A DNA stretch of 64,000 nt from positions 1 to 64,000 of the forward strand of contig JADJNC010000009.1 of assembly GCA_016709335.1 (NCBI GenBank). The letters are read 5' to 3'. This document shows, piece by piece, positions 13,678 through 63,521 of the stretch. The DNA comes from Candidatus Propionivibrio dominans (GTDB lineage: Bacteria > Pseudomonadota > Gammaproteobacteria > Burkholderiales > Rhodocyclaceae). The notes below the pieces were generated by a model. It saw only the letters and a program-made list of their open reading frames with translations, made no database searches and was not told the origin of the DNA. The translations under genes were made by a program, and so were the position numbers. Each line of letters begins with the position of its first letter. Positions within the stretch are counted from its first letter, which is position 1.

Positions 13678-15407
13678 ACTTTCCTGACTTCAATGCCGCA
13701 CTCCTGCTTGGCGCCATCGCTCTGCCGCTCCTGCTGGCAGCAGGAATGGCGCGGCGCGGCTGGCGTTCATGCTTGCTGCGGCTGGCACCGTGGGCGGCCT
13801 TGCCGGCACTCCTCGTCGTGTTTGTGGTGCCTCAGGGCGCCGCAGCTTCTTTTTCCTGGCTCTTCCTCGGTAGCCACCTGGGATTCGACCAGACCGGCTA
13901 CATCTTTCTTCTGTTTACCTCCACGCTGTGGCTGTTGTCAGGTCTGTTTGCACAAACCTATCTGGCAGATGACACGCAGCGCTCACGCTTCTTCGCTTTT
14001 TACCTGCTGGCAATGGCCGGCAACTTCGGGCTGATTCTCGCGCAGGACCTGGTGACGTTTTACGTGTTCTTTTCGCTGATGAGTTTTTCATCCTACGGCC
14101 TGGTCATTCACAATGGCGAAAACGAATCGCTCCGCGCCGGCCGCATTTATCTCTGCCTTGTCGTTCTCGGTGAATTGATGCTCTTTGCAGCAATGGTGAC
14201 GATGGCAACGAACGCCAACTCCATTCTGCTGCGCGACGTCATCGCCGAGCCGATGAGCGACGTGACGCTGGCGTTGCTGCTACTCGGCTTTGGCATCAAG
14301 GCCGGTGCATTGCCCTTGCACGTCTGGCTACCACTGGCACATCCTGCCGCACCGGTACCCGCGAGCGCGGTATTGAGCGGCGCGATGATTAAAGCCGGTC
14401 TGCTCGGCTGGATTCGTTTCCTCCCGCTAGGCCTGGAAGCGTTTCCGCAATGGGGCGCACTCGTCATGGGTGCAGGGCTGGCGGCCGCATTTTTCGGCGC
14501 ACTTGTCGGTGTAACACAAACGAATTCCAAAACCGTGCTGGCCTATTCGAGTATCAGTCAGATGGGGTTGATCACGATCGCCGTCGGCGTCGTGTTGATG
14601 GTGCCCTCGCTGTGGCCGCCTGTCTTGACGGCGATCCTGATTTACGCGTTGCACCACGCGCTGGCCAAAGGCGCGTTGTTTCTCGGTGTCGGCGTGGCCA
14701 GCCATGCCGCAACTCGGGCACAGCGCTTGTGGCTATTCGTCGGCATGTTGGTGCCCGCATTGGCGCTGATCGGCGCGCCATTCACCAGCGGTGCCATTGC
14801 GAAAACGGCGTTGAAGGCCGACTTCACTTCACTCCCGGCGCCCTGGGCAGGCTTCCTGCAGATCGCGCTGCCACTCGCCGCTGTCGGCACAACACTGCTG
14901 ATGGCGCGCTTCCTCTGGCTGCTATGGTCGAAGCCCGCCGCTCATGGTCACTCGCGTTCTGGCCTGTGGATTGCATGGGGATTGCTGCTCGTCGCCGTAG
15001 CCTTGGTCGCCTGGACCCTGCCGATCGCCAACAGCAGCGGGCAAGACGCGCTGAAGATTGACAAAATCCTGGCGGGCTTGTGGCCTTTCGCCATCGGCAT
15101 CCTGGTGGCGTCGGTGGCGCTTGTACGTTCCGGCAGGGAAGGAGGAATGGGCTACCCCAGAATACCAGCGGGTGACTGGCTCGCGCTAATCGCCTGGGCA
15201 GCCCCATACGCGACGCGGATCGGTCTGGATCTACCCATTGATCACCTGATCGTATTCTGGAAAAAAACAGCGGCCTCATTGTTGCTAGCACTACGACGTC
15301 TAGACTCCGGGCTACGCTGGTCGCGCATGGAAGGCTGTCTGAGGAGTTGGAGCGCGGCGGGTATGGCCCTTCTCTGCATCACCATCATTCTCTACCTGCT
15401 CGCTTAA
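13674..15407 (+). CDS. Third MrpD/NuoM-like proton-channel subunit, extended C-terminus
   Basis: 577 aa from the ATG overlapping the previous stop. Contains GFGIKAGALPLHVWLPLAHPAAPVPASAVLSGAMIKAGLLGW and the central TQTNSKTVLAYSSISQMG of the antiporter-like NuoL/M/N family. The C-terminal ~120 residues add two helices and a basic segment. Last gene of the run; a third large channel subunit is not part of the standard seven-gene Mrp operon. Confidence 0.83.
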   Translation: MNFPDFNAALLLGAIALPLLLAAGMARRGWRSCLLRLAPWAALPALLVVFVVPQGAAASFSWLFLGSHLGFDQTGYIFLLFTSTLWLLSGLFAQTYLADDTQRSRFFAFYLLAMAGNFGLILAQDLVTFYVFFSLMSFSSYGLVIHNGENESLRAGRIYLCLVVLGELMLFAAMVTMATNANSILLRDVIAEPMSDVTLALLLLGFGIKAGALPLHVWLPLAHPAAPVPASAVLSGAMIKAGLLGWIRFLPLGLEAFPQWGALVMGAGLAAAFFGALVGVTQTNSKTVLAYSSISQMGLITIAVGVVLMVPSLWPPVLTAILIYALHHALAKGALFLGVGVASHAATRAQRLWLFVGMLVPALALIGAPFTSGAIAKTALKADFTSLPAPWAGFLQIALPLAAVGTTLLMARFLWLLWSKPAAHGHSRSGLWIAWGLLLVAVALVAWTLPIANSSGQDALKIDKILAGLWPFAIGILVASVALVRSGREGGMGYPRIPAGDWLALIAWAAPYATRIGLDLPIDHLIVFWKKTAASLLLALRRLDSGLRWSRMEGCLRSWSAAGMALLCITIILYLLA

Positions 15408-46376: not shown

Positions 46377-46469
46377 ATGAACGCCCCAGACAGATTCTTC
46401 CTTCCCGACATGCAGGCCCGCGCCGACCTCCGCCCTTTGGCGAGTACTTATCCTGGAAACCGCAGTTGA
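46377..46469 (+). pseudogene. Short ORF truncated/altered by MITE insertion
   Basis: Starts at ATG with GGAG upstream, 50 bp after the peroxidase gene (NAPDRFFLPDMQARADLRPLA) and stops inside the MITE. Removing the 177-bp MITE and one CTTAT copy gives a 27-codon ORF ending in TGA that overlaps the ATG of the following hydrolase gene, suggesting a coupled leader ORF before insertion. Confidence 0.45.
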
Positions 46470-46628
46470 GCGCGACCAATTGGCTGCAACACCATGTTTG
46501 GCGAGGGTTTGGCCCTCACCCCGGCCCTCTCCCACAGGGAGAGGGGGTTTGCACCCTTCTCCCTGCGGGAGAAGGGCCGGGGATGAGGGCCTACGATACT
46601 GGCATTACGCTCAACTGCGTTTTTTAGG
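46452..46628. mobile_element. 177-bp MITE, copy 1
   Basis: Ends are inverted repeats of the form CCT..AAA.CGCAGTTGAGCG; the element is flanked by the 5-bp direct repeat CTTAT. The interior holds two large C/G-rich hairpins (CCCTCTCCCACAGGGAGAGGG and CTTCTCCCTGCGGGAGAAG). It has no coding capacity. A second copy of exactly 177 bp (after removing the IS) is at 57997-59647 with TTAAA target duplication. Needs a transposase supplied in trans. Confidence 0.88.
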
Positions 46629-55681: not shown

Positions 55682-57028
55682 TCAGGCCGCGTTGCTCTTG
55701 TCGTCCGCAGTAGTCAGTGCGAGCTTTCGGTAGAGAGTCCGGGAACTGACAGCGAGGCAATCGGCAAGCGCTGCACGATCTCCTTCAAAACGTTGCGCAG
55801 CCCAGGCGATATAACGACGTTCTACCTCGTCGAGCGGGACGGGTGAGTCGATGAGAAAGGCGCTGGCTGGCCACGAGGAGCTCTGTTGACCTGGCGACAT
55901 CGCCTCCATGTCGAAATGCCGCTCGGAGATCTCTTCGCCGTCAACGAGTATGGTTGCCCGTTCGATCAGGTTGCGCAGTTCGCGGATGTTGCCCGAATAG
56001 CGGCGCTGTTTGAGCCCTGTAACGGCTGCCGTAGACAGTCGCAGATTCCGTTCGCCAGCAACGCGTTTGAGAAATGAATCCGCCAGCAATGGAATGTCAT
56101 CAATGCGCTCGGCAAGGGACGGGACGTGGATGGGAAACGTACTGATGCGGTGAAAGAGATCGCGCCGGAAACCCTCCTGTTCAACCATTTGTTTGATGTC
56201 TCGATGCGTGGCGCAAACCAGCCTGAAGTCCGAGCGCAGTGTTTCCACGCCACCGACGCGCCGATAGGTGCCGCTTTCGAGCAGGCGCAGGAGTTTGACT
56301 TGAAGCGGCAGGGGAATATCGCCAACCTCGTCAAGAAACAGCGTGCCACCACTTGCAGACTCAACCAGACCTGTCTTTCGGTGCACGGCGCCGGTGAATG
56401 CCCCTTTTTCATAACCGAACAACTCGCTCTCGAAAAGCGATTCGGTCAGCCCCAAGCAGTCCACGGCAACAAACGGCCCACTGGCGCTTTTCCCGGCCTC
56501 ATGCAGCAAGCGAGCCACCAGTTCCTTGCCCGTACCGGTCTCACCCAGCAGCAGAACGGCCGCGTTGGTCGGGGCAACGCGCATTGCCAACGCGAGCATC
56601 TGCTTGAAGCTCGCCGAGCGGCCGACCAGACCCTCCGCTGCCGGGCTGCTGAACGCCTGTTTGACGACACGCATCGTCTCGACAAAATAGACGATGTTTC
56701 CCTTTTCGTCGCGGATGGGGATGGTTTCAACGTCGACATGTTCTTCGCCACGCGCGGTGTGATGCAGATGGAGAACGCGTTGTACCTGCCCGCTTTCCTG
56801 ACTCATGCGTAGCGGGCAAGGTTCGCCCGCCTGATCGCAGGGCGCGCTGAAATGGTGGGAGACCTCATAACAGTGTTGCCCGGCCACCGGGCCGCATTGC
56901 GCAAAAGCCTCGCTGTAGGCACGGTTGGCGGCGACTATCCGGTACTCGGCATCCATGACGATGCGCGGTTCCGTCTGACCATCGAGAAAGGAAACCAGCT
57001 CGGGCAAGGACTTGACCGGAAAATCCAT
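55682..57028 (-). CDS. PAS-domain sigma-54 transcriptional activator
   Basis: 448 aa from the ATG at 57028. N-terminal PAS (about 15-120) with [21 protein letters not shown] (C53, C64, C71), a possible metal, heme or redox site. AAA+ domain with Walker A GETGTGKE (162-169), GAFTGA (209-214), [12 protein letters not shown]-terminal Fis-type HTH ([20 protein letters not shown]). Probably activates the divergent small gene at 57237, whose upstream region has palindromes and a -24/-12-like element. No receiver domain, so it senses a ligand directly. Confidence 0.88.
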
Positions 57029-57084
57029 TGTTCTACCAGAGGATGTCAAAATTGGCACCAATCTATCACAAACTCTCGGCAAAC

Positions 57085-57098
57085 TGCCATTTATGGCA
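57085..57098. promoter_or_regulatory. TGCCATTTATGGCA palindrome in divergent region
   Basis: Perfect 14-bp palindrome 57 bp before the activator start. Shares half-site TGCCA/TGGCA with the second palindrome at 57171-57189; both are candidate enhancer sites for the PAS sigma-54 activator. Confidence 0.55.
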
Positions 57099-57170
57099 CA
57101 CAAAATTCACCAAGCATCAATTATTTATTTCAAAAATTTATAAAAATCAGCAAGTTGGAATAATTGGCGT

Positions 57171-57550: not shown

Positions 57551-57973
57551 TCAGTAGCTCAGAATTTTTACATTGGGTTGCAGCAAATAAGCCGCAATGT
57601 CAGCCGGCTTGGCAACGCTGACCCCCTCGATCAGGTCAGGCAGTTTCCAATCGCTGTTGGGCAGGAACAGGGCACAGACTTCAACCTTGGCGCCGGCTTT
57701 CAGCAGACTTTGCAGCATGTCCTTGGGGCTTACATGACGCGGCTTCAAGGGCACCGATTCCTTGTTCCTGACAGCGAGTTGGCCACCTTCGCTGCACAAC
57801 AAAACCCGCACAACGGCTTTCTGCTCGACGGCCTGGGTAGCCAGAACCAGGGCCATGCCCTGCGTCTGCGGATTGCCTGAGTTGAGTGTCACGAAAAGTT
57901 CTGTCGAGGTTTCGGCGTGCACCGGCAAGGCAATGGAACACCCCAGCGCCAGAGTGATAAGCAGCTTGTTCAT
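57551..57973 (-). CDS. Exported DsrE/DsrF-like protein
   Basis: 140 aa with signal peptide (LLITLALGCSIALPVHA). TELFVTLNSGNPQTQGMALVLATQAVEQKAVVRVLLCSEGG and VEVCALFLPN fit the DsrE fold; cysteines in LLCSEGG and VCALF could carry persulfide. Its ATG is preceded by TAGGAT. Before the MITE/IS insertions it directly followed the triple-rhodanese gene with a 4-bp ATGA overlap, so it belongs to the octaheme-cytochrome sulfur operon. Confidence 0.78.
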   Translation of the reverse strand: MNKLLITLALGCSIALPVHAETSTELFVTLNSGNPQTQGMALVLATQAVEQKAVVRVLLCSEGGQLAVRNKESVPLKPRHVSPKDMLQSLLKAGAKVEVCALFLPNSDWKLPDLIEGVSVAKPADIAAYLLQPNVKILSY

Positions 57974-58094
57974 GATTTGATCCTATTGAAGTTAAACCTA
58001 AAAAACGCAGTTGAGCGTAATGCCGATATCGTAGGCCCTCATCCCCGGCCCTTCTCCCGCAGGGCGAAGGGTGCAAACCCCCTCTCCCTGCGGG

Positions 58095-59500
58095 CTAATC
58101 TATGCACACATCTTTTGTAGCCAATTTCCAGCCTTGGCAGATCGCCGAGAGGCGCTGCAATCCATGAAGCATGGTGATAGGGCCGGGCTTGGCTTCAGAA
58201 GCATAGCCCTTCCACCCGCCCAGACGCGCAATGACCCATGCGGCTTGGGCAAGGGAGCCTGTACGGTGAGGGTTTTTCTGCTTTTGCGTTTTTCCTTCAA
58301 GGGTCGGTCGTATGCGCTGCAAGACTTCGATCTCGTCCGCATTGAATACGTCGGCGGCTTGAACGGCACTGTGTCCGTCGCGGGCCAAGGTCAATTGCAT
58401 GGTGAGCACCGCCGCCTGAATGGCCAGACAGGCCAGCTTGGTCAGTCCCGCCGCAGTTTCAACCTGGCTGGACTCAAGGTTCAAGCCTTGCTTCTTCAAG
58501 GTTCGGAACAGTTGTTCGATGTGCCAGCGCTGCCGGTACCAGTCGACGCATTGCAAGGCCTCCTCAAGACATGCGATACGGTGCGTGGTCAGCAGGCGCC
58601 AATGAATGGGCGCTTCATTGCCCACCACGCTGCCTGGCAATTCTTTGACTTCAACAACGCTCAATTCAATCTGCGGCGGTGCGCTTTTGTCCGAGCAGGA
58701 GGCGGGACGCCGAATCGTGACACGCCCAAAGCGTACGTCCAGCGTGGCTTGGTGGGCGCTGCGCTTGCCCGGGCGGGCCGGCACGTCAAAGCAGTGGGTG
58801 CCTTGTGCGGGTTGCGCATCGATCCACGCATACAGTTTATCGCCAGCGGCCAGGGTGCGGTCACGGCAAGCACGCGTGAGCAGATGCGTGCGCTCGTCAG
58901 GCACCCTCGCCCATTCTTCATAGATATCGCTTTCCCGGTCGGCAATGATCGTCACCATGGCCGCTTCGGACAGGCAATTCTTGCCGGCTTCGGCGACGTC
59001 CAGCCAGCGGTAGGATTCCCTGTCTTCTATCGGGAGTTTCCGGTAAGCGGGGGAGGCTTTGCCGGTCCTGATCCAGTGATGAATGTGCGCCAAGCCAAGA
59101 CAGGCGCCATCACTGGCATCAACAACCAGCAAGGGATGGAGAAACATGCCCACGTCGCGTCCATTCCCTACCGTGCCAAGGCCGCTGACGCGACCTGCGT
59201 GGGCTTGGTGGTTCAGCTCTGTCGTGTCCTGGATCGCCAGCACATGCCGTCGCCCCGCGGCAATCGCTCCGGTTCGCGCACAGGCACTGACGATCAACTG
59301 TGCAGGCGTCACTTTGTCATTCGCCAGCCAGCGACCATACTGCACCTCTCGCGCCCTGCTTCCTGCCAGTTGCCGAAGACAGACCGTCTGCTTCGACACC
59401 ATGCTCTGAAACAGTGCCGCGCCGTTTTTTTTAACCGAACATCGCCAAAATCACCCACATCGTAGGTCTCATTCCTCTCCAACGCTTGCACACTTTCCAT
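58095..59500 (-). pseudogene. IS4-family transposase, reading frame shifted at an A8 run
   Basis: Starts at ATG 59500 with GGAGG upstream (ESVQALERNETYDVGDFGDVRLKK), then the frame changes at AAAAAAAA (59425-59432, minus strand) and continues as NGAALFQSMVSKQTVCLRQLAGSRAREVQYGRWLANDKVT in the second frame to 58095. Downstream: DDE elements in VLAIQDTTELN, ADRESDIYEEW and YRQRWHIEQLFRTLKKQG. Joined length is 468 aa. Either one A was lost or the slippery A-run allows -1 frameshifting/transcript slippage. Confidence 0.85.
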
Positions 59501-59559
59501 GTCAATCCTCCGGTTATCATTCACCAAAAGATTTAAAGCAAAATGTGTGCATAGATTAG
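58095..59559 (-). mobile_element. IS4-family-like insertion sequence (1465 bp)
   Basis: Terminal inverted repeats CTAATCTATGCACACA and its complement at 59544-59559, flanked by the 9-bp direct repeat CCCTGCGGG (58086-58094 / 59560-59568). Encodes one transposase on the minus strand whose TAG stop codon forms the last bases of the element. The perfect target duplication shows a recent insertion. Confidence 0.93.
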
Positions 59560-60834
59560 CCCTGCGGGAGAGGGTCGGGGTGAGGGCCAAAACCTTGCCA
59601 AACATGGTGTTGCAGCCAATAAGTCGCGCTCAACTGCGGTTTCTAGGTTAAATGCAATCCACCAATGGATTGCGGATGGGCTATTTTTCTGGACCATGCT
59701 GTAAGCACCGTCATTGTTGAACTTGATATCGGCGTCGATGAAATACGCCTGTACCTCGCCCCTGAGCAGCTTTACGGTATCGTAAGCTTCGCCGGAACGT
59801 GCGCCGGTACCACAGATAAACACAACCGGCTTGTCAGTGGGTAGCGTGCCGACTTTTTTCTCCAGGTCATTGATCGGCAAGCTCACCGCCCCCTTGATCG
59901 TGCCGGAGGCAAACTCCTTGGCATCGCGCACATCGACGAGCATGATTGCCGCTGGATTTGCTTTCCAGGCCTGTTCAAACGATTCGACCGTCACCGAGCC
60001 CTTCTCCTTGCCGGGCATCAATGTCGCCGTTGCCGCTTTGCCTGCTGCCGTACCCGAAGCAGTTGTCGCTACCGGTGGTGCACTGTGGAGTTTTTCCCAC
60101 TCGGGATAACCTTCCGGGTAAGTCAGTACCGTCGTGTAGCCAAGCTTCTTCGCCTTCTCTGCCGACTTGTCGGAAAGCAGGCATTCGAGTCCGCCGCAGT
60201 AGTAAATCAAGGGTGTCGCCTTGTTTGCCGGCAACTTGTCGACCTGTTTGTCGAACTCGCTATCGGAGATATTGATCGAGGTCGGGATCATTCCCTTGTC
60301 GGAAACGCGCTTGGGCCGCGCGTCGATCAGGGCGTAAGCCGCCTTGTCGTCGATCAGCTTCTTGATGTAGGCCGCTGACACCGATACCGGTGCCCCCTTG
60401 CTCACCCACTCCGGCATGCCTGCCGCATAGACCTTGATATTCGTAAAACCCAGCTTCTCGGCCTTGAATGCCGAATTGTGGCTCAGCATGCAATCGACAC
60501 CACCACAATAGAATATCAACAAGGTCGATTTGTCGGTCGGTAGCCGCTCGACCTGCTTGTCGAACTGGCTATCGGGAATGTTGATGGCACCAGGAATATG
60601 GCCCGGATCAAACTGTCTGGCAGCCGGCCGCGAGTCGATGAGCAGCACGCCCTTCACGGGTGGAATATCCACATTCGAGCGAACAAAGTCGAAGTCGACC
60701 AGCACCTTGTACCACCCCTCCCTGGCCTGAATTACCGGCGCATCGGCCGCCTGAACAGAAGCGGGGTAGAGCACCGGGAAAGCCACCAGACCGGCCGCGA
60801 AAACAGCCAGCAAACCCAATCGTTTTACGTTCAT
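59533..60834 (-). CDS. Exported triple-rhodanese-domain sulfurtransferase
   Basis: 433 aa as it now reads, from the ATG after AAGGAG; signal peptide (LLAVFAAGLVAFPVLYPASVQA). Three rhodanese domains with active-site Cys C110 (YCGGVDC), C213 (YCGGLEC) and C341 (CGTGARSG). Residues from about 397 to the end are encoded by the MITE and IS; before insertion the protein ended FNRIKS (about 402 aa) with its stop overlapping the dsrE-like start. Moves sulfane sulfur in the periplasm, presumably with the downstream DsrE-like protein. Confidence 0.85.
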   Translation of the reverse strand: MNVKRLGLLAVFAAGLVAFPVLYPASVQAADAPVIQAREGWYKVLVDFDFVRSNVDIPPVKGVLLIDSRPAARQFDPGHIPGAINIPDSQFDKQVERLPTDKSTLLIFYCGGVDCMLSHNSAFKAEKLGFTNIKVYAAGMPEWVSKGAPVSVSAAYIKKLIDDKAAYALIDARPKRVSDKGMIPTSINISDSEFDKQVDKLPANKATPLIYYCGGLECLLSDKSAEKAKKLGYTTVLTYPEGYPEWEKLHSAPPVATTASGTAAGKAATATLMPGKEKGSVTVESFEQAWKANPAAIMLVDVRDAKEFASGTIKGAVSLPINDLEKKVGTLPTDKPVVFICGTGARSGEAYDTVKLLRGEVQAYFIDADIKFNNDGAYSMVQKNSPSAIHWWIAFNLETAVERDLLAATPCLARFWPSPRPSPAGLIYAHILL

Positions 60835-60866
60835 TACAATCTCCTTCCTGAAAAGTGATATGGGGA

Positions 60867-61259
60867 TTAACTGCAACTGGCCGGTGCCTCACCGTCCTTG
60901 GCCCCCTTGATCAGAAACGCCTTGATGTCATCAAGCAGTTCCTGATCCGGCACTTCGGCAAATTTCTCGGCGGCCTTGTTGGCCGATTTTATGCTGGCGC
61001 GATAGCTCTTGCTCACATACTGCTTGACCGTGTCTTTACCCTTGGCATGCTTGTCGGCCTGTATGTAGCTCGACCATTCGGCCATCGTCTTGGCACTTGG
61101 ATTGATCGAGCCGACAGGCATCGCCACATGGCATGAAGTGCACACGCTGCGGTAGTAGATGCGACCGCGCTTCCAGTCGGCATCGTAAGCGCTTGCGGAA
61201 AAGGATGCACCGAGCAGAGTGAGCAGGACGGCGGCAGCTATGGGTTTTGCGGATTTCAT
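60867..61259 (-). CDS. Periplasmic c-type cytochrome (one CxxCH)
   Basis: 130 aa from MKSAKPIAA with signal peptide. Single heme motif CTSCH (C40-H44), then MPVGSINPSAKTMAEW, where a methionine could be the second axial ligand. Probably carries electrons between the cytochrome b subunit and the octaheme protein. 33 bp upstream of the rhodanese gene, in the same operon. Confidence 0.85.
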   Translation of the reverse strand: MKSAKPIAAAVLLTLLGASFSASAYDADWKRGRIYYRSVCTSCHVAMPVGSINPSAKTMAEWSSYIQADKHAKGKDTVKQYVSKSYRASIKSANKAAEKFAEVPDQELLDDIKAFLIKGAKDGEAPASCS

Positions 61260-61308
61260 GATTTGGGCTCCATTGCAGTGGGTTGGTATTCGTTGGATGA
61301 ATTGCTCG

Positions 61309-61908
61309 TCAGGTCTCATCCCAGCCAGTAATCATGGCCTTGATTTGAGATGTGGGCGTATGCCCTGTTGTCACCAGATAAATGTGGGAAACGAAAAAAG
61401 CCAGCATCAGGAAGGCACCGATGGTATGGCCGATGGCCACCCATTCAAGTTGCAGACCGCTCAGGCCACAGGCCGACCATTCGCCATGGAAGAGATAAAG
61501 CCAGCCAGTGATCCAGATCAGCGGGCTGATGAACAACAACACCCCTAGATAGGTCAGACGCTGCAAAGGATTGTGCTTGTTAAGCTGGCTTGGCTTGAAG
61601 GGATGCGGCTCGTTCCGGAAAATACCGGAGGAATAGAAACGCGCAATGACCAGAACTTTCTCGACGCTCGGGATGTAGTGCCGCCACTCACCCGTCGTCA
61701 GGTGCCAGAAAATCGCAAAGATCCACAAGCCGACCAGCGACCATGCGGCAATGTTGTGAAAGCTCACTGCCCGTTCGAAGCCGAAGAGCGAATAGGCACC
61801 ATGGATTTCAAAACCCGTCAGCATCATGAACATGATCAGGCCGGCTTGCGACCAGTGCCAGAAGCGTTCAAAACCCTTGAAGATATATACGCGTTCGCCC
61901 ATTTTCAT
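61309..61908 (-). CDS. Cytochrome b561-type membrane subunit
   Basis: 199 aa, four to five helices. ERFWHWSQAGLIMFMMLTGFEIHG, SFHNIAAWSLVGLWIFAIFWHL, and GHTIGAFLMLAFFVSHIYLVTTGHT carry the histidines expected to bind two b hemes (Ni/Fe-hydrogenase/thiosulfate-reductase cytochrome b family). Exchanges electrons with quinol for the periplasmic octaheme subunit. Starts at ATG overlapping the octaheme stop by 4 bp. Confidence 0.88.
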   Translation of the reverse strand: MKMGERVYIFKGFERFWHWSQAGLIMFMMLTGFEIHGAYSLFGFERAVSFHNIAAWSLVGLWIFAIFWHLTTGEWRHYIPSVEKVLVIARFYSSGIFRNEPHPFKPSQLNKHNPLQRLTYLGVLLFISPLIWITGWLYLFHGEWSACGLSGLQLEWVAIGHTIGAFLMLAFFVSHIYLVTTGHTPTSQIKAMITGWDET

Positions 61909-63521
61909 TCTCCTTGGTGCTTGCGACGAGCGACGAAGAGCATCAGGCCGTGGCCAAGCGAGCCGAGCAGGGCCAGCAGGGCAATTCCCCAGCCGATGGT
62001 GTCGATCAGTTTGTTGGCATCGCGGCCCGGGATATAGACGCCCTGAATGCCCGCCAGGCGGCCATTCTTGCTGTGGCATTCGACGCAGGCCAGGGCATTT
62101 TCCTTGGGGGCGACCATGTGCGTGATCGGCCAGAACATCTCGGTCTTGACGAAATCAACCTTGCCCGAGAAGGGCAGGCCGGCGTCCTTCATGCCCGTTT
62201 CAACCGCCTTGTCCCAGACCAGATTTTTCCAGTAGCCGGTGTCGTCGTTGCCCGCGGTGTGCGGCTTGACCAGCGTCTTGTTTATCGGATCGAAAGGCTG
62301 TGAGCCGCGGAAGACCTTGACCGGCCAGATCAACGACTTGCCGTCCGTGGGACTACCGCCGAGCCAGTTGATGCGGATGACGCCCTCGGACTTCTCGATC
62401 TTGTCGGTCACCAGCGTGTAATTGACGTCGCCATTGAACCAGAAGTATTCGGGTTTTACGTTTTCGCCCAGCGTAAATGTGCCTTTTCTCGACTCGTAGA
62501 TGACGCGGCCCTTGTCGTCCTTCCTGACGACCTGTTTGCCCTCGGCATCACGCTCGCCAGCCGTCGACCAGTCCCAGCTCATCTTGGTAGCCACACCACC
62601 CCGGGCAAAGGCCGGAATATGGCAGGTCTGGCAGGCGACCTTGGTAGCGTGCTGATTGAGGCGTTCTTCCTTCTTGTGCGGCCCGTTCCCATGGCAGGAA
62701 ACACAGGTCGCCGGATTGCTGTTGTCCACCTTGCCCCGGATGTGAACTCCGTCCTTGTCCATCGCCGTCGGGTTGTAACGGCTACCGGCGACATCATGGC
62801 TGGATGTCTTGTGACAGGTGGCACAGGTAAAATCCAGTCCGGTGGCATCCATATGCACGTCCAGTTCCCTGTCCGGCGCGGCCATCGAACTGTCGAGGTC
62901 ACCATGCTTGACGGCGTCACCGCCGCCACCGAAGAAATGGCATGCGCCACAGGTGTCGCGACTGGATTTGCCCACCTTCTGCGCGACCTTGGTGATGTCG
63001 ATACCCTTGACGATCTTGCCGGACCCGGGCGGCAGTTCCATGTCCTTGATCACCGGATTGCCAGCCAGACCCGGCGGTTTCTTGTAAATGCCGGTGGTGT
63101 CGTGACAAACCAGACAGTCGATGTTTTCCTTGACGCTGAAGTCGAAATTGGCGTCTTTCCAGCCGTATCCGATGTGGCAACTGGTACAGGCCGAGTAATT
63201 GGAGGCGATGGAAATGCAGAAGTTGTTGAGGATGTGCTTTTTGCCCAGCGTCTGCCCGCTGTCGGGATTAAGGTGCTCCCACTTCCAGTGCTTGGTACGG
63301 TGTATCTGGCCAGCCGCCTCGGTGTGGCAGGTCAGGCAGGCCTTGGTCACCTCCGGACCGGACTGAAATTCTCGCTGCAGCTCCTTGAATTTGGAGTGAT
63401 CAGCCGTCGTCGTCAGCTTGAGTGGCTTCGGCTCATCAGCCGCCAACGTGGTTACAGAAAACAGATACAACAAGACCGCAAGAGCACATCCTGCAGACTG
63501 TCGTAAGGAATTGAGCCCCAT
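61905..63521 (-). CDS. otr: Octaheme tetrathionate-reductase-type cytochrome c (OTR)
   Basis: 538 aa with signal peptide. Eight CxxCH motifs: residues 62-66, 112-116, 136-140, 191-195, 233-237, 273-277, 297-301 and 479-483; a C-terminal transmembrane helix (about 509-530) anchors it. Size and heme layout fit the octaheme OTR family, able to reduce tetrathionate, nitrite and hydroxylamine in vitro. In this operon with cytochrome b and c, a triple rhodanese and DsrE, a sulfur-compound redox role is likely. First gene of the operon. Confidence 0.9.
   Translation of the reverse strand: MGLNSLRQSAGCALAVLLYLFSVTTLAADEPKPLKLTTTADHSKFKELQREFQSGPEVTKACLTCHTEAAGQIHRTKHWKWEHLNPDSGQTLGKKHILNNFCISIASNYSACTSCHIGYGWKDANFDFSVKENIDCLVCHDTTGIYKKPPGLAGNPVIKDMELPPGSGKIVKGIDITKVAQKVGKSSRDTCGACHFFGGGGDAVKHGDLDSSMAAPDRELDVHMDATGLDFTCATCHKTSSHDVAGSRYNPTAMDKDGVHIRGKVDNSNPATCVSCHGNGPHKKEERLNQHATKVACQTCHIPAFARGGVATKMSWDWSTAGERDAEGKQVVRKDDKGRVIYESRKGTFTLGENVKPEYFWFNGDVNYTLVTDKIEKSEGVIRINWLGGSPTDGKSLIWPVKVFRGSQPFDPINKTLVKPHTAGNDDTGYWKNLVWDKAVETGMKDAGLPFSGKVDFVKTEMFWPITHMVAPKENALACVECHSKNGRLAGIQGVYIPGRDANKLIDTIGWGIALLALLGSLGHGLMLFVARRKHQGE

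Follow-up and report, generated by a model that had tools for sequence, protein, structure and literature searches.

The octaheme c-type cytochrome OTR of Shewanella is reportedly able to reduce tetrathionate, nitrite and hydroxylamine, and work on that enzyme is said to have revealed a lysine-ligated catalytic heme; to our knowledge, there is no settled view of what OTR-family octaheme cytochromes do in vivo. Here we describe a minus-strand gene cluster in a stretch of 64,000 nucleotides from Candidatus Propionivibrio dominans (contig JADJNC010000009.1, positions 1 to 64,000; hereafter the window), in which an OTR-type cytochrome is encoded together with a cytochrome b561-type membrane protein, a mono-heme cytochrome c, an exported triple rhodanese and an exported DsrE-like protein. 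We consider it probable that this cluster specifies a quinone-linked octaheme sulfane-sulfur oxidoreductase module with a periplasmic relay, of which dsrE is an optional part.

The role predicted for the cluster is worth comparing with those of the closest described systems. Shewanella oneidensis Otr (Protein Data Bank (PDB) entry 1SP3) belongs to the same family as the window OTR (TIGR04315), and its heme sites and GGGGDAVKHGD motif align with those of the window protein, which differs in having a C-terminal membrane helix, an overlapping b561 gene and a set of sulfur transferases; the match to the Shewanella chain, 443 residues long in the PDB entry, stops at residue 490 of the window OTR. 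In the parts of the source available to us, the Psr system of Desulfurivibrio dismutans (PMC12142623) likewise has an exported triple rhodanese beside a quinone-linked sulfur redox enzyme, which is PsrABC there, whereas an octaheme cytochrome and b561 are found in the window. No molybdopterin catalytic subunit of the Psr/Phs type is present among the window cluster genes, and the catalytic candidate is the octaheme cytochrome. The YTD cluster, composed of YeeE, the TusA-like YeeD, a DsrE-like protein, Chp1 and Chp2 (PMC13047784, seen in part), resembles some relatives of the window locus in combining YeeE/YedE and DsrE-like genes, but in the portions seen it is described without rhodanese or cytochromes, whereas the window cluster, in which TusA was not searched for, falls outside the YTD type (YeeE plus TusA-like genes) in having no YeeE, and its DsrE-like protein is exported. 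In lucinid symbionts, which are sulfur oxidizers, otr lies beside soxY-S3 and soxZ and thus also beside a periplasmic sulfur carrier; the carrier is, however, SoxYZ rather than a rhodanese, and the sections available describe no set of b561, cytochrome c and YeeE (PMC11237559). Finally, clusters 5-T/4 of Dethiobacter alkaliphilus combine a SirA/Otr-like octaheme cytochrome, upregulated on thiosulfate, with rhodanese-domain proteins, but these octahemes are distant (20 and 22–23% identity to Otr and SirA) and have other neighbours, as far as the excerpts go (PMC10376724). The literature searched, seen partly in extract and leaving subscription papers mostly outside its coverage, gave no description of the otr–b561–cytochrome c–rhodanese combination, which is weak evidence; the cluster is apparently a conserved, undescribed arrangement of known families.

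Gene calls and family models agree on the gene order that the first-pass annotation of this DNA had given, and the genes are as follows, in their order of transcription:

61905..63521, minus strand: otr, octaheme c-type cytochrome, exported, with a C-terminal membrane helix (TIGR04315, eight CXXCH, match to PDB 1SP3)
61309..61908, minus strand: cytochrome b561-type membrane protein, 199 aa (PF01292, 88 bits, cut-off 30.1)
60867..61259, minus strand: mono-heme cytochrome c, 130 aa, CTSCH, penultimate Cys (PF13442 only below its cut-off)
59533..60834, minus strand: triple rhodanese, exported, native to about 59689 and followed by a foreign C-terminal tail (PF00581 in three stretches)
57551..57973, minus strand: exported DsrE-like protein, 140 aa (predicted fold; some close homologues carry PF02635 or are named as DsrE family)

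The window OTR reaches 639.3 bits against TIGR04315 (cut-off 375), has CXXCH at residues 62, 112, 136, 191, 233, 273, 297 and 479 and the GGGGDAVKHGD motif at 198, and matches 1SP3 over residues 48–490 (E 2.6e-116, 391.6 bits), which is its sole PDB match at E 0.001. We take the lysine of this motif, from the work on 1SP3, to be the distal ligand of the active-site heme. Among 75 complete OTRs, eight CXXCH are present in 74 and the GGGGD..KHG motif in 70, and a C-terminal helix passes a hydropathy threshold of 1.6 in 61, with 13 of the other 14 close to it (1.25–1.59); the protein of locus L070 has only seven CXXCH and no hydrophobic tail. The rhodanese contains PF00581 domains with active-site cysteines, its window motifs being CGGVDC, CGGLEC and CGTGAR, and Cys110, Cys115, Cys213, Cys218 and Cys341 are invariant in all 42 complete rows of the alignment, window included. 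In the cytochrome c, 53 of 54 rows, that of the window among them, have Cys as the penultimate residue, within an end that reads AKDGxxPASC(S/N) or similar (window; L001:10263-10652); His64, within CTSCH, and His91 are invariant, and no Met besides the start Met is conserved at 85%. This C-terminal Cys presumably resembles the swinging-arm Cys of SoxY and makes the cytochrome c a concrete target for further work. The DsrE-like protein has no Pfam or NCBIfam family of its own at E 0.001 and stays below the PF02635 gathering score, that family being carried by three of its 120 listed homologues (P0068, P0070 and P0086). Its AlphaFold2 model (pLDDT, the predicted local distance difference test, 87.6) matches the DsrE-type structure 3pnx (E 2.4e-07), 1jx7 and 2hy5_A, so that a DsrE-type fold is predicted, and Cys60 and Cys100, candidates for the position of Cys78 of DsrE, are at least 90% conserved among 24 sequences.

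The association of these genes extends well beyond the window. Scanning genome contigs with the window OTR gave 168 relatives, the best 80 of which (loci L001 and following) were used for counts; neighbours within 8 kb of otr were counted by tblastn with score limits, and simple open reading frame calling, which in many loci overlooked genes or placed them wrongly, served for gene order alone. Within this distance, b561 was found in 70 of the 80 loci, cytochrome c in 54, the triple rhodanese in 44, a YeeE/YedE transporter (PF04143) in 30, DUF302 in 15 and a dsrE relative in 10. Wherever the rhodanese is linked (44 loci), b561 and cytochrome c are there as well, and YeeE/YedE is present in 24 of these loci, lying in relatives between the cytochrome c and rhodanese genes. 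Nine have dsrE, which follows the rhodanese gene on the same strand in eight and is an opposite-strand fragment in L020, so that adjacency of dsrE and rhodanese, on which the first-pass annotation depended, does occur in relatives. Gene order varies, the rhodanese gene standing after, before or divergent from otr, and the search that the annotation had called for, aimed at intact otr–b561–cytochrome c–rhodanese–dsrE clusters free of insertions, found exactly this order in L001, L002 and L003. The five genes thus form one association, of which OTR and rhodanese are the conserved linked pair, although cluster size varies, dsrE being optional and YeeE/YedE being a member in 24 of the 44. The OTR tree has 81 rows, of which 62 are set apart by a starred branch. 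This group of 62 takes in every one of the 45 rhodanese-linked rows, the window being counted among them. In L016 and L023, two of its other 17 members, a partial rhodanese stands at the contig end; in ten more the contig stops where the gene could lie, and five have room for it. That OTR and the triple rhodanese are associated as genes is therefore an observation. By their record titles, the rhodanese-linked OTRs belong to Sulfuritalea, Sulfuricella, Sulfurimicrobium, Aromatoleum, Propionivibrio, Accumulibacter and others, and the rhodanese has no match among PLSDB plasmids at E 1e-60.

Outside the rhodanese-linked branch stands a sister OTR group with the order DUF302–otr–b561 and no triple rhodanese, in which many members are Sulfuricellaceae (L053, L054, L056–L060, L063–L067, L073 and L077); the 14 rows labelled with DUF302 form a single group with a support of 89, unstarred. 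Sulfuricella sp. T08 holds both OTR types (L044 and L054). The ATGA by which the b561 start overlaps the otr stop (61905–61908 in the window, and likewise in L001) was considered as a feature typical of such clusters and dropped, being seen in just 5 of the 45 rhodanese-linked rows judged and in 9 of 71 judged overall.

The same pairing is seen at the level of whole genomes. Among 150 genomes of the family to which the genome of L001 (G001) belongs, with soxB and dsrA counted only over their cut-offs and the triple rhodanese at E 1e-40, OTR over cut-off was found in 41, the rhodanese in 20, soxB in 59 and dsrA in 34. All 20 rhodanese genomes have OTR over cut-off, compared with 41 of 150 overall (Fisher 7e-14, a value inflated by kinship). 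Genes of sulfur oxidation are likewise more frequent with OTR, soxB being present in 26 of 41 OTR genomes versus 33 of 109 without OTR, and dsrA in 21 of 41 versus 13 of 109. Within the 44 genomes behind the rhodanese-linked loci (dsrA at E 1e-40 and soxB at E 1e-60, split and partial genes counted), dsrA was found in 20 of 24 genomes whose locus bears YeeE and in 2 of 20 whose locus lacks it, and soxB in 22 of 24 and 4 of 20, respectively, both contrasts being inflated by relatedness. YeeE/YedE presence thus tracks reverse Dsr. No YeeE relative was found between the window cluster genes or in the genomes of L001–L006. One of the two dsrA-positive exceptions without YeeE is G005, a bin titled Selenomonadales, whose OTR (L005, JARKPR010000047.1) is identical to that of L004 from a Propionivibrio metagenome-assembled genome (MAG); judged from this identity, L005 is probably a misbinned contig, and because of it the dsrA of G005 may stem from a mixed bin.

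The rhodanese and DsrE-like families, together with YeeE in relatives, point to sulfur transfer, and to this extent the membrane-linked sulfur redox and sulfur-relay pathway suggested in the first-pass annotation, as one not recognised as described, is supported; the combination is undescribed in the literature searched, as far as that could be seen. In the predicted mechanism, the membrane-anchored OTR would sit on cytochrome b561 and exchange electrons with the quinone pool, and it would make or break S–S bonds of periplasmic sulfane sulfur. The sulfur would be carried by the triple rhodanese (two CGGxxC domains and one CGTGAR), the C-terminal Cys of the cytochrome c and, where present, DsrE. 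In the version bearing YeeE, the sulfur would be imported into the cytoplasm and passed to reverse Dsr, and for this version we commit ourselves to net oxidation. From gene content, linkage, conserved residues and co-occurrence we infer the complex, its electron path, the transfer of sulfur, the direction and the substrate. For the window's version, which is without YeeE, we tentatively suppose, at a little short of an even chance, that sulfide or thiosulfate would be oxidized to a carrier persulfide or polysulfide, with the electrons going to quinone.

Reduction is a real possibility for this YeeE-less version, although we lean to oxidation over it. Quinol would then pass electrons via b561 to OTR, and the rhodanese would supply the substrate to be reduced, whether tetrathionate, thiosulfate or polysulfide; the cluster might, with the same standing, be a molybdenum-free counterpart of polysulfide reductase (PsrABC is a molybdenum enzyme) and its sulfur-transferase. 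Such a respiration accords with the naming of the OTR family for tetrathionate reduction and with 1SP3 as the sole structural match, as well as with the cytochrome b, which is nearest to the thiosulfate reductase cytochrome B model, although at 134.5 bits it stays under the cut-off of 204. Neither soxB nor dsrA was found, at the limits used, in the genomes of the window's close relatives L001–L004 and L006 (G001–G004 and G006). The exported triple rhodanese in the Psr operon of D. dismutans, in the part of that account available (PMC12142623), points the same way. However, the enrichment of OTR and rhodanese in genomes with Sox and reverse Dsr, and the tracking of reverse Dsr by the YeeE version, are a better fit to oxidation.

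A more specific form of the oxidoreductase proposal, which we regard as unlikely but worth stating, is that the rhodanese-linked OTRs form a clade specialized as quinone-linked persulfide oxidoreductases; they would act on protein-thiol sulfur carried either by the triple rhodanese or by the C-terminal Cys arm of the partner cytochrome c. If this were true, it would provide a physiological role for an OTR-family octaheme cytochrome and a periplasmic entry gate through which sulfane sulfur reaches YeeE and reverse Dsr in Betaproteobacteria. An OTR clade that travels with sulfur carriers, b561 and (mostly together with reverse Dsr) a sulfur importer offers a testable role in sulfur metabolism.

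Several points weigh against the sulfane-sulfur module. Five members of the clade have room for a triple rhodanese and do not have it, downstream in L024, L048, L049 and L069 and upstream in L061; the rhodanese-free side of L061 is the side of its YeeE gene, and L048 has just a 33% rhodanese match, within an ArsR–rhodanese protein. In G096 and G124, which are counted among the 20 rhodanese genomes, the rhodanese match is only partial. When OTR genomes alone are compared, presence of the rhodanese is no predictor of sox or dsr (16 of 20 with it versus 13 of 21 without, p 0.31), and the Fisher values are overstated because the genomes are related. YeeE changes five times on the OTR tree, and the tree-aware test yields four independent pairs on starred branches, which puts significance out of reach (dsrA, about 2.9 pairs in agreement and 0.2 in disagreement; soxB, 1.9 and 0.1). 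Neither soxB nor dsrA exceeds its cut-off in G001, the genome of the window's nearest relative. For the cytochrome c model, the PDB search brought nothing at E 0.001 (best match 4j20, E 0.49), and upstream of otr in the window the best sigma-54 site matches 5 of 11 positions, none of the candidates being good; the maximum among the 12 upstream regions scanned was 9 of 11, in L024 (raw match counts, no null computed). In addition, we know of no activity for the rhodanese-linked OTR clade, and Atkinson et al. are said to have found in 2007 that Shewanella OTR also reduces nitrite and hydroxylamine.

That reported activity, together with denitrifiers, which we take to be among the cluster hosts, speaks for another function, in which OTR would be a nitrite/hydroxylamine reductase or an NO-detoxifying enzyme and the rhodanese and DsrE would protect it from sulfur or be bystanders. 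We hold this to be improbable, since linkage in 44 of 80 loci, in several gene orders, is not to be expected of a bystander, and the rhodanese occurs with OTR in 20 of 20 genomes, with YeeE linked too. Still less credible, and in our view very improbable, is a module that handles selenium instead of sulfur, as might be suggested by the scores of the rhodanese domains on the selenoprotein model TsoB (117 bits, cut-off 805) and of YeeE on YedE/FdhT (110.7, cut-off 350); all these scores are far under the cut-offs, and co-occurrence is with Sox and Dsr. A sulfane-sulfur oxidoreductase remains the reading that we prefer.

The last gene of the window cluster is separated from the rest by two nested insertions, which were located as follows:

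57997..59647, strand not applicable: miniature inverted-repeat transposable element (MITE) of 177 bp with an insertion sequence (IS) inside, imperfect terminal repeats CCTAGAAACCGCAGTTGAGCG / CCTAAAAAACGCAGTTGAGCG, relatives in G001
57992..57996, plus strand: MITE target duplication TTAAA, copy 1 (alignment with L001)
59648..59652, plus strand: MITE target duplication TTAAA, copy 2 (alignment with L001)
58095..59559, minus strand: IS4-family insertion sequence, 1465 bp, transposase at 58095-59402 (NF033590, 325.8 bits, cut-off 160)
58086..58094, plus strand: IS target duplication CCCTGCGGG, 9 bp, copy 1 (sequence)
59560..59568, plus strand: IS target duplication CCCTGCGGG, 9 bp, copy 2 (sequence)
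59684..59688, minus strand: A-run, one base shorter than in L001 (alignment with L001)
46452..46628: second MITE copy, 177 bp, uninterrupted, with a 5-bp duplication CTTAT

The nesting described in the first-pass annotation, an IS with a 9-bp duplication inside a MITE with a TTAAA duplication, is confirmed in both parts, and L001, a relative whose OTR is 97% identical, lacks both elements; it has the five genes in the same order with the insertion site empty, and the insertion point is intergenic DNA there. The nearest sequences to the window come from Propionivibrio MAGs, namely L001 and the protein P0121 (Propionivibrio sp.).

The annotation had gone further and taken the genes for one translationally coupled operon, because removal of both elements makes the rhodanese gene end in FNRIKS. 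Scripted excision indeed yields ...HWWIAFNFNRIKS-stop (FNRIKS), with the rhodanese TGA overlapping the dsrE ATG as ATGA. Coupling was nevertheless not the original state in this lineage: the rhodanese of L001 ends ...YSMVQKK-stop, 51 nt ahead of dsrE, and in six of the eight other loci read (L002, L003, L009, L010, L018 and L019) the stop lies 52–86 nt before dsrE, so that the uninterrupted homologues nearest to the window lack the overlap. In L017, the distance is 568 nt, with a single-rhodanese gene in between. An FNRIK or HWWIA tail is found in none of the 120 best rhodanese homologues (of 2934 found), and P0121, identical over all 378 residues searched, ends in MVQKK; the rhodanese of Sulfuritalea hydrogenivorans is another of the homologues. 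With only the excised sequence and one distant locus in its favour, an original ATGA coupling destroyed by the insertions is scarcely credible; that locus is L025 (Hydrogenophaga MAG; 14459-14477), where the dsrE frame could start at an ATG that forms ATGA with the rhodanese TGA or at a second ATG 14 nt past the stop, and which may, as read from its sequence, have an independent overlap of its own.

Because the A-run of the window is short by one A, the frame is opened and the rhodanese reads through into the MITE and the IS; judged from the alignment, the FNRIKS tail arose either through loss of one base or through a base error. We put the second of these, a base-calling or assembly error, somewhat above an even chance, in which case the gene in the living cell would end in MVQKK with no foreign tail. 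The site is a homopolymer, and P0121 has a normal end, but P0121 is possibly from another strain, and a genuine one-base loss is also compatible with the data. A lone base lost from a homopolymer can thus yield a persuasive yet false gene overlap. Of the "split" operon claimed for this site, the displacement of the last gene holds, whereas the three rhodanese domains are intact and merely have a foreign C-terminal tail added.

That the MITE and then the IS moved the dsrE-like gene about 1.66 kb off the rhodanese gene is the best explanation of this arrangement. Between the window and L001, the ratio of nonsynonymous to synonymous substitution rates is 0.26 for dsrE and 0.22 for the rhodanese, compared with 0.04–0.09 for the other three genes; by this measure there is no sign of decay of dsrE since the insertion, although most of the divergence may predate it. 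The larger element is assigned to the IS4 family by its transposase score, perfect terminal repeats of 17 bp and target duplication, and the smaller one to the MITEs by its length of 177 bp, terminal inverted repeats, 5-bp duplications at both window copies and further copies in G001. Searches for the IS and the MITE end (20 bases, at most one mismatch) covered 81 genomes. The IS was present in G001 alone, in a single full copy (98%) and three incomplete ones located at contig ends, and all four, like that of the window, begin at the palindrome of one type of hairpin repeat, which reads CCCTGCGGG or CCCGCAGGG; of the far flank of the full copy only three bases remain, too short to judge a duplication. 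The element is apparently a target-specific insertion sequence (window 58086-59568; L087–L090), and its choice of the MITE hairpin palindrome as target accounts for the nesting. For the MITE end, G001 gave five hits and G075 one, and the other genomes of the 81 none; four of the five ends in G001 pair into elements of 166–177 bp and one is unpaired, the element in G075 being 133 bp, and an exact 5-bp duplication flanks one of the four G001 copies.

Beyond dsrE lies a possible regulator of the otr cluster:

55682..57103, minus strand: PAS / sigma-54 activator (PF00158, 214 bits; PF08448; PF02954)

Nine of the 80 loci have a homologue of this regulator no more than 8 kb from otr, and two of these loci (L074 and L075) are outside the rhodanese-linked clade. 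A good sigma-54 promoter ahead of otr, which would tie the window cluster to this regulator, was not among the sites found in the scan of upstream regions. Between 57400 and 60000, no sigma-70-type site was found on the minus strand; two plus-strand promoter-like and two terminator-like sites are present, compared with shuffle means of 0.8 and 3.3, respectively.

Some related clusters contain additional genes. At L048:11977-12642, an ArsR-type regulator fused to a rhodanese domain adjoins the otr–b561–YeeE cluster, in a position compatible with sulfane-sulfur control. The rhodaneses of L046, L051 and L055 appear by eye to be lipoprotein-like, and directly 3' of the rhodanese gene in two of these loci lie genes for proteins of 613 aa (L046:11935-13776) and 606 aa (L055:11936-13756) together with a 107-aa protein, the 613-aa protein of L046 containing DUF3373 (its L055 counterpart was not scanned). 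Finally, some clusters of the Sulfuritalea type have two additional half-size PF04143 genes before YeeE (L009:10743-11877).

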